Shown here one piece after another: positions 6,605-12,710 of a stretch of DNA of 24,842 nucleotides. The notes below the pieces were generated by a model. The model made no database searches. It worked only from the letters and a program-made list of their open reading frames with translations, and was not told the DNA's origin. The stretch lies in the IMG/VR virus record IMGVR_UViG_3300032048_000014, positions 1 through 24,842 of that record; one strand, 5' to 3'. Position 1 is the stretch's first letter. Each line of letters starts with the position of its first letter. The translations under genes and the position numbers were made by a program. Source of the DNA: a virus.

Positions 6605-8611
6605 TTGGAGCCAGAAATAGTGGAAAAATTTAAGTTATCGGAAAATTTTATAAATAAATATAAGAAAAAAAAACCACCATTTGGTTTTAATGGATTAGGT
6701 GAATTAGTTTATATGAGAACCTATTCTCGTATTAAAGAAGATGGAAAAAATGAGAGATGGTGGGAAACAGTTCAAAGAGTTGTAGAAGGAACTTACTCAA
6801 TGCAAAAATCCCACATTGATTCATATCAGTTGGGTTGGAATGCATGGCAAGCTCAAAAATCAGCTCAAGAAATGTATGAGAGAATTTTTAATATGAAATT
6901 CCTACCACCTGGTCGTGGGTTGTGGGCTATGGGAACACCAATCACCGAAGAAAAAGGTCTTTATGCGGCACTTAATAATTGTGCATTCGTATCTACTAAA
7001 ACATTAAAAGAAGATTATTCAAAACCATTTTGTTTTCTAATGGATGCCTCTATGTTGGGTGTTGGTGTCGGTTTTGATACTAAAGGTGCAGGTAAGATCG
7101 TAATTAAAGGTGTAAATCGTAATAGAAATGAAGAAATATTTATGATACCTGATACAAGAGAGGGTTGGGTAGAATCACTTCGTTTATTATTAGAGAGTTA
7201 TTTTCACGGAACATCACCAATAGAGTTTGATTATAACCAAATAAGAGATTTAGGTGAACCAATCAAAGGTTTTGGTGGAGTGAGTTCAGGTCCTGAACCA
7301 CTAAAAGAAATTCATAATGATATTAGAAAAGTATTAGATAAGAATAGTGGAGAACCAATCACAATAACTACAATTGTTGATATTATGAATCTTATAGGAA
7401 AATGTGTTGTAGCGGGAAATGTTCGTAGAACTGCTGAAATAGTTTTTGGTGACCCTGACTCAGAAGAATATTTAGATTTAAAAAATTATAAAGTAAATCC
7501 ACATAGAGAAATGTTTGGGTGGACATCTAACAATTCTATCTTTGCAGAACTTGGTATGGATTATACAGAAGCAGCAAAAAGAATCGTAGATAATGGTGAA
7601 CCAGGATTTGCTTGGTTACAAAATATGAGACATTATTCTCGTATGAAAAATGGTGGTGATGATAAAGACCATAGAGTGGCTGGTGGTAATCCTTGTCTTG
7701 AACAATCACTTGAATCATATGAGTTATGTTGTTTAGTAGAAACATTTCCAAACAATCACGATTCATTAGAGGACTATCAAAGAACATTGAAATATGCTTA
7801 TCTGTATGCCAAATCGGTAACACTTGGTAGAACACATTGGTCAGACACTAACAGAGTTATGTTAAGAAATAGACGGATTGGATGTTCAGTAAGTGGTGTT
7901 GCTCAGTTTATAACAAATCGAGGATTAGATGAACTTAGAAATTGGTTGGAGAGCGGCTATGATACAATACAAGAGTGGGATAAGATGTATTCAGATTGGT
8001 TTGCAATACCACGTTCCATTAAAACTACTTCAGTTAAACCAAGCGGCACAGTTTCCTTATTGGCTGGTGCTACTCCAGGTTTACATTATCCCGAAAGTCG
8101 TTTCTATATTAGGAGAGTAAGATTATCAAAACAATCTGAATTAATAGAACCATTAAAAAAAGCAAATTATACAATAGAACCAGCATTTGGTTCAGAAGAC
8201 ACTACTATGGTAGTGGAAGTACCAGTAGATGTGGGTGAAGGAATTAGGACTGCGAGTGAGTTATCCATATGGGAACAATTCAGTTTAGCAGCATTTATGC
8301 AACGACATTGGGCAGATAATCAAGTAAGTTGTACAGTTACATTCGACCCAGAAGCAGAAGCTGATGAAATTGCACCTGCTTTAAACTATTTTCAATATCA
8401 TTTGAAAGGTATTTCTTTACTACCAAGACACAACTATGGTGCTTACAAACAAATGCCATATGAAGCAATAGATGAAAAAACATATCATTTTGAAGCAGAA
8501 AGACTTGGTAAGTTATATTTTGGTGTAATTAAAAATGAAGAAGCAGAAATAGACAAGTTTTGTAATAACGATAACTGTGAAATACCAGGCGAAACTATAA
8601 AAAAAGCTTGA
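6605..8611 (+). CDS. nrdJ: class II (B12-dependent) ribonucleoside-triphosphate reductase
   Basis: 668 aa. Converts NTPs to dNTPs with adenosylcobalamin, with or without oxygen, feeding phage replication. All key cysteines of the monomeric Lactobacillus-type enzyme are recognisable: Cys126 in NNCAF and Cys375 (redox pair), thiyl-radical Cys364 with Glu366 in GGNPCLEQ, and the C-terminal shuttle pair Cys653/Cys658 with CX4C spacing. KPSGTVSLLAGATPGLHYP begins at about residue 478. It is slightly shorter than the 739-aa L. leichmannii protein. Start: TTG 6605 with AAGGA (6595-6599) five bases upstream. GTG 6620, five codons later with GGAG 9 bases ahead, is an alternative. Its stop TGA overlaps the -35 box of the next promoter. 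Confidence 0.93.
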   Translation: MEPEIVEKFKLSENFINKYKKKKPPFGFNGLGELVYMRTYSRIKEDGKNERWWETVQRVVEGTYSMQKSHIDSYQLGWNAWQAQKSAQEMYERIFNMKFLPPGRGLWAMGTPITEEKGLYAALNNCAFVSTKTLKEDYSKPFCFLMDASMLGVGVGFDTKGAGKIVIKGVNRNRNEEIFMIPDTREGWVESLRLLLESYFHGTSPIEFDYNQIRDLGEPIKGFGGVSSGPEPLKEIHNDIRKVLDKNSGEPITITTIVDIMNLIGKCVVAGNVRRTAEIVFGDPDSEEYLDLKNYKVNPHREMFGWTSNNSIFAELGMDYTEAAKRIVDNGEPGFAWLQNMRHYSRMKNGGDDKDHRVAGGNPCLEQSLESYELCCLVETFPNNHDSLEDYQRTLKYAYLYAKSVTLGRTHWSDTNRVMLRNRRIGCSVSGVAQFITNRGLDELRNWLESGYDTIQEWDKMYSDWFAIPRSIKTTSVKPSGTVSLLAGATPGLHYPESRFYIRRVRLSKQSELIEPLKKANYTIEPAFGSEDTTMVVEVPVDVGEGIRTASELSIWEQFSLAAFMQRHWADNQVSCTVTFDPEAEADEIAPALNYFQYHLKGISLLPRHNYGAYKQMPYEAIDEKTYHFEAERLGKLYFGVIKNEEAEIDKFCNNDNCEIPGETIKKA

Positions 8612-8637
8612 CTTGAACTGGTTTTTATTCGTATATT
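8608..8637 (+). promoter_or_regulatory. sigma70-like promoter for DNA polymerase gene
   Basis: TTGACT (8608-8613), an 18-base spacer and TATATT (8632-8637). This is the best -35/-10 pair in the window. The expected transcript start, near 8644, gives a very short leader of about 20 bases that contains AAAGAGGT (8651-8658) and then AUA at 8665. The -35 box overlaps the nrdJ stop codon. If this start is right, the transcript would exclude or barely include the ATG at 8643. Confidence 0.6.
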
Positions 8638-8664
8638 CATACATGAAATTAAAGAGGTATAGCT

Positions 8665-11166
8665 ATATATCAAAATATCTTTTATCAATATAAGAGACGA
8701 AGAATACATATTTGGGATGATCAAAAGGGATATTCAGTACACCCTTTTAGTCAATATGCATATGTAAAGGATACTAAAGGAACATATACATCTTTATATG
8801 GTGATAAAGTAAGGAAATTACCTATCAGTAGAATAGGCGAAACCGATACAGCTTTTGAATCGGATGTGTTGCCAGAAATTAGGTTTTTGGTAGATAGTTA
8901 TACAGATTCAGATGAGGTATCAGAGGGTCATAAAGTTATGTTCTTTGATATTGAAGTAGAGGTTACACAAGGATTTCCTGATGTAAATAAAGCTGAAAAT
9001 ACAATTACTTCTATTGCTTTATATGATGAATTGACTAAACAATATTATTGTTATGTTCTTGACAAAGAGGATAAAGTCAATCCAAATCAATTTGGTGAAA
9101 CAACTGTTATTAAGTTTAAAGATGAAAGAGACTTACTAACTGCATTTTATCAAAAATATCTTGAAATATCACCAACAATTATAAGTGGTTGGAATAGTGA
9201 TAGATTTGATGTTCCATATCTTTATAATCGGTCTCGTCTGTTGTTAGGAGATGAAGTAGCTAATTGTCTTTCACCAATAGGAATCGTAGAATTTCAGAAA
9301 TATAAAGGAACATATAAGATTGCAGGTGTAGCTTCACTTGATTATCTTGAATTATATAAGAAACTTACATTTGGTGAAAGGTCGTCATATCGATTAGATG
9401 ATATTGGTAAGTTAGAGGTTGGTATAAATAAAGTATCTTATGAAGGCACACTTAATGATTTATATGATGGTGATAGAAATAGGTTTGTAGAATATAATAT
9501 AAATGATGTTATTATTCTTGAGAAACTTGATGCAAAGTTAGATTTTATTGGTATTGCTAGAGCTATTTGTCATTTGGGTCATGTTCCATATGAAGATGTA
9601 TATTATTCATCAAGATTCCTCGAGGGTGCTATTCTTGTGTATCTTAAAAAGGTTGGTATTGTAGCACCAAATAAAGTAAAAGCAAATAAACAATTGATGG
9701 ATGGTAAGGATAAGTTTGCAGGTGCATATGTTCAAGACCCACAAAAGGGTAAACACGAATGGGTGTATGACTTAGATATCACAAGTATGTATCCGTCTAT
9801 TATTATGAGTTTAAATATATCTCCTGAAACTAAGTTGGGTAAGTTAGATAGTTGGGATGTAGAATCATTTCTTAAAGGTGTGGATAAGACATATAGTGTT
9901 AAGGATAAGAATGGTAAAGAGAGTGCTAAACTAACTACAGCAGAGTTCAAGAATTTTTTGAAAGATAATAATGTATCTATATCTACTAATGGTGTGTTAT
10001 ATACACAAGATAGAAAAGGTCTTATACCGACATTGTTAGAAAAGTGGTTTGATGACAGAGTTCAGTTTAGAAAGTTAGCAAAGAAATTTGCAGATAGTGG
10101 TGATAAAGAGAAATATGCATACTTTGATAGACGACAATATATTCAAAAGGTTGTTCTAAATTCACTATATGGTGTGTTGGGATTACCCGTATTTCGTTTC
10201 TATGATATAGATAATGCTGAGGCAACGACGACAACGGGTGTAGAATTAATTAAATATACCAGAAGTATGGTTAATCATTATTACAATTCAGTAGTAGAAG
10301 ATAAAGAAGATTATTGTATTTATATTGATACAGATTCAGTTTTTTATTCTGCTATTCCTATCATTCAGAAGAAATATCCACACATAGATATTAAAGATGA
10401 AAATTTAATGACTTCTAAGATTTTGGAAATTGCATCAAGTGTTCAGAAATATTTAAATGATTCATATGATTTATTTGCTAAGAAGTTTTGTAACATAGAT
10501 GAACATAGATTTGAGATTAAGCAGGAATTGATTGCTAAAAGTGGGTTATTTGTTACAAAAAAACGATATGGTATGAAGATTATTAATGATAATGGTGTTA
10601 AGGTAAATAAACTTCACGTAAAAGGTTTAGATATTGTTCGTTCAAGTTTTCCAGCGGCTTTTAAAGAATGTTTAACTAAAGTATTAGAAGATATATTAGC
10701 AGATGTTCCTAAAATAAAAATTGATGAGTTTATTTTAAACTTTAAAAAATCTATGAAGTTAAAAAAATATGACACGATAGCAATGCCAACTTCAGTTAAA
10801 AATGTGAAAAAGTTTGTTCAAATTACTGATGGTTTCATAACTCCAAAAAAAGGAGCTCCTGTTCATGTTAAGTCAGCAATAAACTATAATAACTTTTTAG
10901 TTATCAATAAATTAAATAAAAAATATCCTCCAGTTGGTAATGGAGAAAAAATTAAGTGGACTTATTTAAAAGATAATCCGTTGAAATTTGATACTATATG
11001 TTATAAAGGTCATGAAGACCCAAAACAAGTATTGGATTATATAAAACAATATATTGATACGGATAAAATCTACAAACAAGCACTTAGTAAAAAAGTAAAG
11101 ATGCTATATCAAGCATTACAATGGGAAGAACCAAATGATGATTTTGGTTTTAATAAATTCTTTTAA
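8665..11166 (+). CDS. 43: family B DNA polymerase (gp43), apparent AUA start
   Basis: 833 aa if begun at AUA 8665 (T4 gp43 has 898). It is the replicative polymerase with a 3'-5' proofreading exonuclease. Exo I FFDIEVEV (Asp95, Glu97), Exo II SGWNSDRFDVPYL, Exo III YNINDVIIL; polymerase motif A DLDITSMYPSII (Asp371), motif B KVVLNSLYGVLG (Asn499, Tyr502), motif C YIDTDSVFY (Asp555, Asp557). KKRYGMKI follows, and the C-terminus ends DDFGFNKFF, a likely clamp-binding peptide. The first conventional start in frame is GTG 8866, only 25 codons before Exo I. The frame upstream is open to TAA 8650 and encodes protein-like sequence (YQNIFYQYKRRR, IHIWDDQKGYSVHPFSQYAY) expected of the N-terminal domain. 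AUA 8665 sits 7 bases after GAGG (8654-8657); changing its third base would give an ordinary MYQNIFYQYK start. Confidence 0.93.
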   Translation: MYQNIFYQYKRRRIHIWDDQKGYSVHPFSQYAYVKDTKGTYTSLYGDKVRKLPISRIGETDTAFESDVLPEIRFLVDSYTDSDEVSEGHKVMFFDIEVEVTQGFPDVNKAENTITSIALYDELTKQYYCYVLDKEDKVNPNQFGETTVIKFKDERDLLTAFYQKYLEISPTIISGWNSDRFDVPYLYNRSRLLLGDEVANCLSPIGIVEFQKYKGTYKIAGVASLDYLELYKKLTFGERSSYRLDDIGKLEVGINKVSYEGTLNDLYDGDRNRFVEYNINDVIILEKLDAKLDFIGIARAICHLGHVPYEDVYYSSRFLEGAILVYLKKVGIVAPNKVKANKQLMDGKDKFAGAYVQDPQKGKHEWVYDLDITSMYPSIIMSLNISPETKLGKLDSWDVESFLKGVDKTYSVKDKNGKESAKLTTAEFKNFLKDNNVSISTNGVLYTQDRKGLIPTLLEKWFDDRVQFRKLAKKFADSGDKEKYAYFDRRQYIQKVVLNSLYGVLGLPVFRFYDIDNAEATTTTGVELIKYTRSMVNHYYNSVVEDKEDYCIYIDTDSVFYSAIPIIQKKYPHIDIKDENLMTSKILEIASSVQKYLNDSYDLFAKKFCNIDEHRFEIKQELIAKSGLFVTKKRYGMKIINDNGVKVNKLHVKGLDIVRSSFPAAFKECLTKVLEDILADVPKIKIDEFILNFKKSMKLKKYDTIAMPTSVKNVKKFVQITDGFITPKKGAPVHVKSAINYNNFLVINKLNKKYPPVGNGEKIKWTYLKDNPLKFDTICYKGHEDPKQVLDYIKQYIDTDKIYKQALSKKVKMLYQALQWEEPNDDFGFNKFF
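8678..8697 (+). promoter_or_regulatory. hairpin early in gene 43, 14 bases after the AUA start
   Basis: TCTTTTAT (8678-8685) pairs with ATAAGAGA (8690-8697), with one T-G wobble, around the loop CAAT. It begins at +14 counted from the A of AUA 8665. It is AU-rich and therefore weak. Its interest comes from the similar element at the same offset in the other gene lacking a standard start (18184-18201). A role in holding the initiating ribosome is speculative. Confidence 0.3.
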
Positions 11167-11217: not shown

Positions 11218-11949
11218 ATGGATAAACAAACGTTGATGGGATTTGTCAACAGGTTTTACTTGGGTGGTCAGACACAATCTGCACCTATAGTTTCAACAAA
11301 AGATACTCTTAGTTGTTCATTCATCAATTCAGCAAAAAGTTGTGTTGGTGATATTGTTCTATCTAAGAATGGTTTCGGTGATTATGAAATGGGTCTCTAT
11401 GAGATTCAAGACTTAATTAAGTTACTGAATGTTTTGGATGGAGAGTTGGTTGTTGAAGCTAATGAAGTTGGTGATATTGTGTCTCAATTAGTTATTAGTC
11501 AAAAGAGTAATAGCACTAAAGTCAATTATGGATTGGCTCGTCTTGATGTGGTTTCTAAGAAACCCGATCTGACGAATGTTCCAGAATTTGATTTAGAATT
11601 AAAAATAGATAAGCAATTCATCAGTTCTTTTGTTTCAGGCAAAGGTGCTTTGAGTGATGTTTCTACTTTTGCAATCCTATCGGATGGTGTAGAAGCAAAA
11701 ATTGTAATCGGTTACAGTTCAAGTACACAATCAAATAAAGTAACTATTCCTGTAGAAACTAAGAAAATGTCTTCACTTGATGATGCTGTTTTCTTTGATG
11801 CAGATACTTTTAAAGAAGTTCTAACTGCAAATAAAGATTGTGAATCAGCAACTCTTTATGTTTCAAGTGTAGGTTTAGCAAAAGTTAATTTCAAAGTAGA
11901 TGATTTTGATTCTACTTATGTCTTGGTAGCAAAAACAACTGTAGACTAA
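11218..11949 (+). CDS. 45: sliding clamp, DNA polymerase processivity factor (gp45)
   Basis: 243 aa (T4 gp45 has 228). The trimeric ring tethers gp43 to DNA, and in T4 it also activates late transcription. The N-terminal region NRFYLGGQTQSAPIVSTKDT, the alternating strands, LLNVLDGELVVEANEV, the acidic mid-region, and C-terminal ATLYVSSVGLAKVNFKVDDF and STYVLVAK fit the gp45 two-domain clamp fold. The protein is acidic, as expected for a clamp. ATG 11218 has AAAGGAG 7 bases upstream. Its stop shares a base with the start of a Mom-like gene. The clamp loader subunits are encoded about 2.6 kb downstream rather than adjacent as in T4. Confidence 0.88.
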   Translation: MDKQTLMGFVNRFYLGGQTQSAPIVSTKDTLSCSFINSAKSCVGDIVLSKNGFGDYEMGLYEIQDLIKLLNVLDGELVVEANEVGDIVSQLVISQKSNSTKVNYGLARLDVVSKKPDLTNVPEFDLELKIDKQFISSFVSGKGALSDVSTFAILSDGVEAKIVIGYSSSTQSNKVTIPVETKKMSSLDDAVFFDADTFKEVLTANKDCESATLYVSSVGLAKVNFKVDDFDSTYVLVAKTTVD

Positions 11950-12710
11950 TGGAACAATATGTAGATAAATCAAAAGTTTATCTGCGGGAAATAGATAAGA
12001 AAACTGCGAAGAGGATGATTGTAGTAAATCATTATTCGCATAAGTTTTCTTCTTGTAGGTATGCCATAGGTATATTTTATAAGTCAGAAAACCCACATCC
12101 TTTTTTTAAGGATATGAGTGAAGAAAAACTTGTTGGTTGTATGACTTATGGCTACCCTGTAGGAAGATCGGTAATGAGGTCTATTTTCAAGGATGAAGAT
12201 ATCTTGCAGACAAAAAATATTTTGGAATTGACAAGATTATTCATTCATGATGATTATGGAAAGAATATTGAATCTTATTCTATTGCACAATCATTCAAAT
12301 GGTTAAAGAAGTATGATGAAGATGTTAAGGTATTAATCAGTTATGCAGATCCCGATAGATTACACTTGGGTGGTATTTACAAAGCCACCAATTGGATGTA
12401 TCAAGGTGCAGGATTGAATTTAATGCCAAATTATTCGATATCATTAACTAATCCATATGAGTGGATACATAGTAGAACGGTTTCAGCTACTTGGGGAAGT
12501 CATAATGTAGAGAAGTTGAAAGCAGCTATAGGATACTCATTTTGGAGAAGAAAAGAACCAGATAAACATCGTTATATTTATTTCATAGGAAATAGAAAAG
12601 AAAATAAGAAGTTTATAAAGAATTTAAAATATGAATCAAAACCATATCCAACAGATGCTGAAGAGTATGTTTCACCAGTAGAGGAAATTAAAGTGGAAAG
12701 TAAATTATGA
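11949..12710 (+). CDS. Mom-like DNA adenine-modification protein, paralogue 1
   Basis: 253 aa, GNAT-related fold. Phage Mu Mom converts adenine in DNA to a carbamoylmethyl form that blocks many restriction enzymes; family members share the motifs seen here. In order: VNHYSH (residues 26-31), GCMTYGYPVG, ILELTRLFI, SIAQSFKWLKKY, VLISYADPDRLHLGGIYKA followed by TNW, and SRTVSATWG. The C-terminal 40 residues are charged and probably flexible (KYESKPYPTDAEEYVSPVEE). ATG 11949 overlaps the gp45 stop (TAATG), so its translation is coupled to the sliding clamp. No com-like activator gene lies nearby. A second, shorter Mom-like gene is at 16243. The exact modification is unknown. Confidence 0.8.
   Translation: MEQYVDKSKVYLREIDKKTAKRMIVVNHYSHKFSSCRYAIGIFYKSENPHPFFKDMSEEKLVGCMTYGYPVGRSVMRSIFKDEDILQTKNILELTRLFIHDDYGKNIESYSIAQSFKWLKKYDEDVKVLISYADPDRLHLGGIYKATNWMYQGAGLNLMPNYSISLTNPYEWIHSRTVSATWGSHNVEKLKAAIGYSFWRRKEPDKHRYIYFIGNRKENKKFIKNLKYESKPYPTDAEEYVSPVEEIKVESKL

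Follow-up and report, generated by a model that had tools for sequence, protein, structure and literature searches.

A probable AUA start codon that may limit synthesis of a gp43-type DNA polymerase in uncultured marine-type phages

In S. aureus, AUA and AUU start codons preceded by extended Shine-Dalgarno (SD) sequences yield about 10% of what AUG yields, a figure that holds in reporters for cvfC1, ccpN, and citZ (PMC13009471). Non-canonical starts such as the AUU of infC are repressed by IF3, as is sigR with its GUC start (PMC5472188), and pcnB is described, in work cited in PMC13009471, as limited by its own AUU start. Gene 43 of phage T4 is under autogenous repression, in which gp43 binds an operator made up of ribosome-binding-site sequence and a leader hairpin some 40 nt upstream; this autoregulation is absent in some T4-related gp43 proteins (PMC3014915). 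Our literature search for AUA/ATA/ATT starts in phages returned a single case, orf28 of the S. thermophilus phage TP-J34, for which an AUU start was predicted and checked by resequencing (PMC3952083).

The window analyzed here is a 24.8-kb virus contig (24,842 nt, 31% GC). Its gp43-type family B DNA polymerase gene lies at 8665–11166 on the plus strand (833 aa counted from the ATA at 8665) and encodes PolB exonuclease and polymerase domains (Pfam PF03104, E = 2.9e-20; PF00136, E = 2.7e-36). The best fold match of the predicted gp43 structure is RB69 gp43 (TM-score 0.85), and the Exo I aspartate is residue 95 when numbered from the ATA. Neighboring ORFs were tentatively recognized as replication genes (uvsX, helicase, clamp, clamp loader) by reading their translations, the clamp-loader A gene being the only neighbor matched by a model, just under the Pfam cut-off. 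The window belongs to a group of uncultured bacterial viruses of marine type. Elsewhere in the window, 16243–16881 matches the Mom DNA-modification family (PF25680, E = 7e-41), the ORF at 11949–12710 reads like this Mom-family ORF and is possibly a paralogue, and 586–1842, among the replication genes, combines a coiled-coil-like N-terminal half with a Laminin_G_3 lectin domain.

A sigma-70-like promoter is predicted between the ribonucleotide reductase gene and gp43 (8608–8637, plus strand; -35 TTGACT at 8608–8613, 18-bp spacer, -10 TATATT at 8632–8637), and its -35 box contains the TGA stop (8609–8611) of the ribonucleotide reductase gene. Alignment places the start of that upstream gene at about GTG 6629 or a nearby GTG, and not at TTG 6605 as in the mechanical call; the first residue of its homologues is that of MEKFKLSE, a position occupied by GTG in the window. 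Promoter scores of at least 9 occur at 69–86% of gp43 loci versus 25% before other genes, and one promoter type is common to gp43 relatives that start with ATA, ATT, TTG, and ATG.

The predicted transcription start of gp43 lies near 8644, some 21 nt ahead of the ATA. The gp43 frame is closed upstream by a TAA (8650–8652, plus strand), after which it reads AGA GGT ATA GCT ATA(8665) TAT CAA, and an SD sequence, AAAGAGG, spans 8651–8657 on the plus strand with a duplex energy of -7.2 kcal/mol with the anti-SD core. The spacer between its GAGG (8654–8657) and the ATA at 8665–8667 is 7 nt. The earlier ATA at 8659 was rejected as a start because it is too close, one base past the SD. The first conventional in-frame start is a GTG at codon 68 (8866–8868, plus strand). 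These results agree with the first-pass annotation, which had the frame closed by TAA 8650, GTG 8866 as its first ATG/GTG/TTG, and the AUA 7 nt past GAGG and about 20 nt past the predicted transcript start. Folding of this leader gave weak local structure only.

The annotation had also seen a protein-like N-terminus ahead of GTG 8866, and this was borne out. The 67 codons concerned (8665–8865, plus strand), which a start at the GTG would remove, align end to end with homologues, and the homologous N-terminus starts precisely at the residue of ATA 8665. Tyr2 and Gln3 are invariant in 32 sequences down to 45% identity. AlphaFold2 predicts a beta-rich domain here, with strands at residues 2–53 and a pLDDT of about 85–92 up to residue 50. 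In codons 2–67, synonymous changes outnumber nonsynonymous ones against four of five close relatives; against L033, the most diverged of the five, the count is 15 synonymous to 20 nonsynonymous. Because of the end-to-end alignment, the invariant Tyr2 and Gln3, the codon changes, and the predicted strands, we conclude that the segment is coding.

Translation might instead begin elsewhere, either at GTG 8866, which as the first conventional start is the choice of a standard gene caller, or at an upstream out-of-frame ATG at 8643 combined with a frameshift. The GTG was rejected because it would delete a conserved N-terminal domain with invariant residues and a predicted fold, and in the alignment of close relatives no protein starts at the GTG 8866 position; homologues starting there were one of the two observations that the annotation had named as refuting its proposal. 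The ATG at 8643 coincides with the predicted transcription start, most close relatives have ATC in its place, and the frame it opens is 16 codons long and terminates at TAA 8691; as this ATG is not conserved, it was rejected as well. We regard a start at either site as highly unlikely.

The ATA is shared with its surroundings among close relatives. The first scan found 13 close relatives, which come from other samples and show 89–95% protein identity, and every one has ATA, the ribosome-binding site, and the upstream stop as in the window, so that the annotation's proposal of AUA 8665 as the gp43 start is matched in codon, spacing, and SD throughout this set. The window's SD occurs in close relatives, and L012/L031, L028, and L033 have TGAAGAGG. 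On the polymerase tree, the window's subclade has ATA in 13 of 15 rows and ATG in two members; ATG with a different leader stands at the start in the close relatives L029 and L030. Since the contig is metagenomic and a single base separates ATA from ATG, a sequencing or assembly error that hides a true ATG has to be considered. A G at 8667 was the other observation that the annotation had named as refuting. However, independent assemblies from many samples concur on ATA at 8665, and ATT or ATC occurs in related leaders, which leaves such an error with a negligible chance.

We compared the start codon at the aligned methionine position, as the annotation had advised, across 200 gp43 loci, which are the best matches listed, up to 80 loci per scan, after removal of identical loci and whose frequencies are no census. 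Among these listed loci the aligned start is ATG in 101, TTG in 55, ATA in 25, ATT in 16, ATC in 2, and GTG in 1, with the more distant relatives carrying ATG, TTG, ATT, or ATC where the window has ATA. The frame is closed upstream in all 43 ATA/ATT/ATC genes among the 200 listed loci, and in 42 of the 43 there is no in-frame ATG, GTG, or TTG between the upstream stop and the ATA/ATT/ATC; the single exception, L064, has a TTG four codons upstream. Some of these genes, though none in the window's group, have an ATG at codon 14 and may therefore make a slightly shorter product. ATG or TTG is the start in relatives with less than about 55% identity and in the cultured phages that were checked.

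On a maximum-likelihood FastTree of 199 polymerases, computed with residue 1 left out, the start codon must have switched at least 45 times, and supported branches hold at least 9 gains or losses of ATA and at least 12 of ATT. Part of these changes may come from recombination of leaders. The window-type ATA leader is also found ahead of the polymerases L050, L280, and L281, whose identity to that of the window is no more than about 60%; L043, the nearest relative of these three, has a different leader and TTG. Such a distribution suggests that leader cassettes were exchanged or retained.

No credible ATA or ATT start stands at the aligned first residue in any of 1,361 other gene copies from the contigs that carry these gp43 loci. 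A codon other than ATG, GTG, or TTG stands at the aligned start in 83 of these copies, but 69 have one of the three within five codons and the remaining 14 are internal or spurious alignments. With every odd case explained in this way, a clade-wide habit of odd starts was rejected. The naive Fisher test of 43 of 200 gp43 genes versus 0 of 1,361 others, whose rows are not independent, gives p = 6e-40. In the adjoining sliding clamp, all 176 copies whose start aligns directly have ATG, 97% of them behind a strong SD, and an ATG precedes each of its 11 ATA/ATT alignments, by three codons in one case and by a single codon otherwise. Weak starts (AUA, AUU, and AUC) are far commoner in gp43 than in any other gene checked.

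Changed codes, as well as tRNA or IF3 devices borne by phages, exist elsewhere in biology, and AUA could by such means be read as methionine in infected cells. The first-pass annotation had allowed for starts being recognized differently during infection, a suggestion that found no support: neighboring genes use ATG, GTG, or TTG, and ATA codons internal to gp43 align with isoleucine (67 I, 21 L, 12 V, 7 M). Starts at ATT and ATC occur too. The tRNAs found were those for Ala, Gly, Tyr, and Cys, with none in the ATA-carrying contigs tested, and no IF3 domain was found in 20 related contigs, the contigs in both searches being incomplete. Recoding of AUA as methionine was rejected on the isoleucine matches and the lack of a relevant phage tRNA or IF3 in the contigs tested, and we consider it very improbable.

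The choice of start codon is coupled to the placement of the SD. Mean SD duplex energy at positions -16 to -5 is -6.9 kcal/mol for ATA, -7.9 for ATT, and -6.3 for TTG versus -2.9 for ATG. An SD of -5.5 kcal/mol or below is present in 40 of 41 ATA/ATT/ATC loci, and the spacer from SD to start is 7–8 nt for ATA/ATT versus 14 nt for ATG. Statistics on single rows are non-independent here, and pairs drawn from the tree provide the independent comparison: a strong SD at -16 to -5 goes with the non-ATG start in 17 pairs versus 0 (median p = 1.5e-5), and with ATA/ATT/ATC in 13 versus 0 (p = 2.4e-4). The sister pair L028 (ATA) and L030 (ATG), 96% identical over residues 2–101, has leader and start swapped, and L180 (ATT, AAGGAG) and L117 (ATG, no SD) are 93% identical over the same residues.

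This coupling of non-ATG starts to a strong SD is gone when the SD is measured over -22 to -3 with lenient thresholds. The SD difference between start classes is mainly positional; the ATG class has an SD-like run that is merely displaced and might be used through another mechanism. Because any non-AUG start requires an SD, this half of the coupling is expected even without regulation. As for the other half, a strong SD accompanies 53% of other genes' ATG copies versus 2 of 101 ATG-started gp43 genes, but ATG with a weak SD is also found in some control gene families and is therefore not unique to gp43.

The start-codon classes could not be told apart by the folding of their leaders, and hairpin covariation in the ATG-class leader gave weak signals only, the best candidate pair being -16/-4. 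Leaders of the ATG class (L030, L202, L209, L260, and others) share AAATGGGGATTTTAyAAyCTAA in the roughly 24 nt right before the ATG, a conservation that extends well past an SD and comes with weak hairpin potential. The [U/C]AA[U/C] within it is, as a string of letters, reminiscent of the UAAC loop in the T4 gp43 operator (PMC3014915). In the ATA/ATT leaders of L201, L228, and L104, a hairpin (in L104, GGGATA-TTA-TATCCC) precedes additional sequence that holds a new SD and the ATA/ATT, which gives the impression that a second ribosome-binding site was placed after the old leader.

The position of the ATA, its conservation, its repeated turnover, its gene specificity, and its coupling to SD placement are established by these comparisons, and we think it probable that gp43 is genuinely initiated at AUA 8665 and that this codon acts as a brake on polymerase synthesis. 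In the mechanism we propose, the gene's own strong promoter would yield a short leader (about 21 nt), on which a strong and ideally spaced SD would dock the 30S subunit. The host's normal initiator tRNA, carrying fMet, would then pair imperfectly with AUA at the third position, so that few docked ribosomes would proceed to elongation and the rate of polymerase synthesis would be capped at a low yield. Since IF3 destabilizes non-canonical initiation complexes (PMC5472188), such capped synthesis is probably sensitive to IF3, like that of infC or ccpN. It is probably sensitive to the supply of free ribosomes as well. In this clade the cap would be kept by two interchangeable designs, one with a near-cognate AUA, AUU, or AUC, or with UUG, behind a well-placed SD, and one with AUG and an SD moved out to about 14 nt. 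The replacement of one design by another, among two or three of similar expected strength, suggests selection for low or moderate polymerase dosage. The dosage cap proposed in the first-pass annotation is consistent with this leader pattern, while the cap itself is something we infer.

The same AUA could also be real but unregulated, a mildly deleterious or neutral start that drifts and is tolerated under compensation by a strong promoter and SD. ATA, ATT, TTG, and ATG do interchange among close relatives, and both the promoter and the SD are strong, as this explanation would have it. It sits poorly with the absence of any drift to ATA/ATT elsewhere in the same contigs, even in the sliding clamp with its strong-SD ATG, and with the retention of ATA in the window's close subclade save for its two ATG members, and we judge it unlikely. 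Beyond a brake through AUA 8665, it is conceivable, though doubtful, that the weakness of the start codon serves as a tunable and exchangeable sensor, with polymerase synthesis tracking the supply of IF3 and free ribosomes and with leader cassettes of the AUA, AUU, UUG, or displaced-SD AUG design traded between lineages. If so, replication would be matched to the host's translational state during infection.

Only a few bacterial genes are known to start at AUA or AUU, and here such starts occur across a clade in an essential phage replication gene. The many independent switches provide a natural comparison, in which one protein is preceded by differing leaders and starts, and these natural variants make the persistence of bad start codons a testable question. 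Gene callers limited to ATG, GTG, and TTG can clip the N-terminal domain off such polymerases, the first conventional start here being codon 68.

Set against the systems described at the outset, the gp43 of the window resembles infC of E. coli and S. aureus in having a near-cognate AUH codon (AUU or AUA in infC) behind a strong SD, and probably also in the weak, IF3-repressed initiation that has been shown for infC (PMC5472188; PMC13009471). The product of infC is IF3 itself, which closes a feedback loop, whereas here it is a phage DNA polymerase whose start has been turned over repeatedly. The ccpN AUA of S. aureus and B. subtilis, the cvfC1 and pcnB AUU, and the sigR GUC are likewise conserved non-canonical starts that limit yield, as the gp43 start presumably does. 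With infC, ccpN, and pcnB the window's gp43 shares an AUH at the aligned first residue, no conventional in-frame start upstream, a strong SD at ideal spacing, and a start kept among relatives. Those, however, are cellular genes in which the codon is conserved, whereas the gp43 codon is exchanged with ATG or TTG through leader changes, AUH being swapped for UUG or AUG beyond the window's subclade. The predicted AUU start of TP-J34 orf28 is also in a phage gene, but it is one prediction, made without comparative evidence, and not in a polymerase. In T4 and RB69 the same gene, 43, is restrained at translation initiation, as it would be in the window's phage. In T4 the means is a hairpin operator, whereas here the leader, predicted at about 21 nt, would not hold an operator of the T4 type, though a longer read-through transcript might, and the start codon is apparently the brake. 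The principle is thus a known one in a new place, and its evolutionary turnover is unusual.
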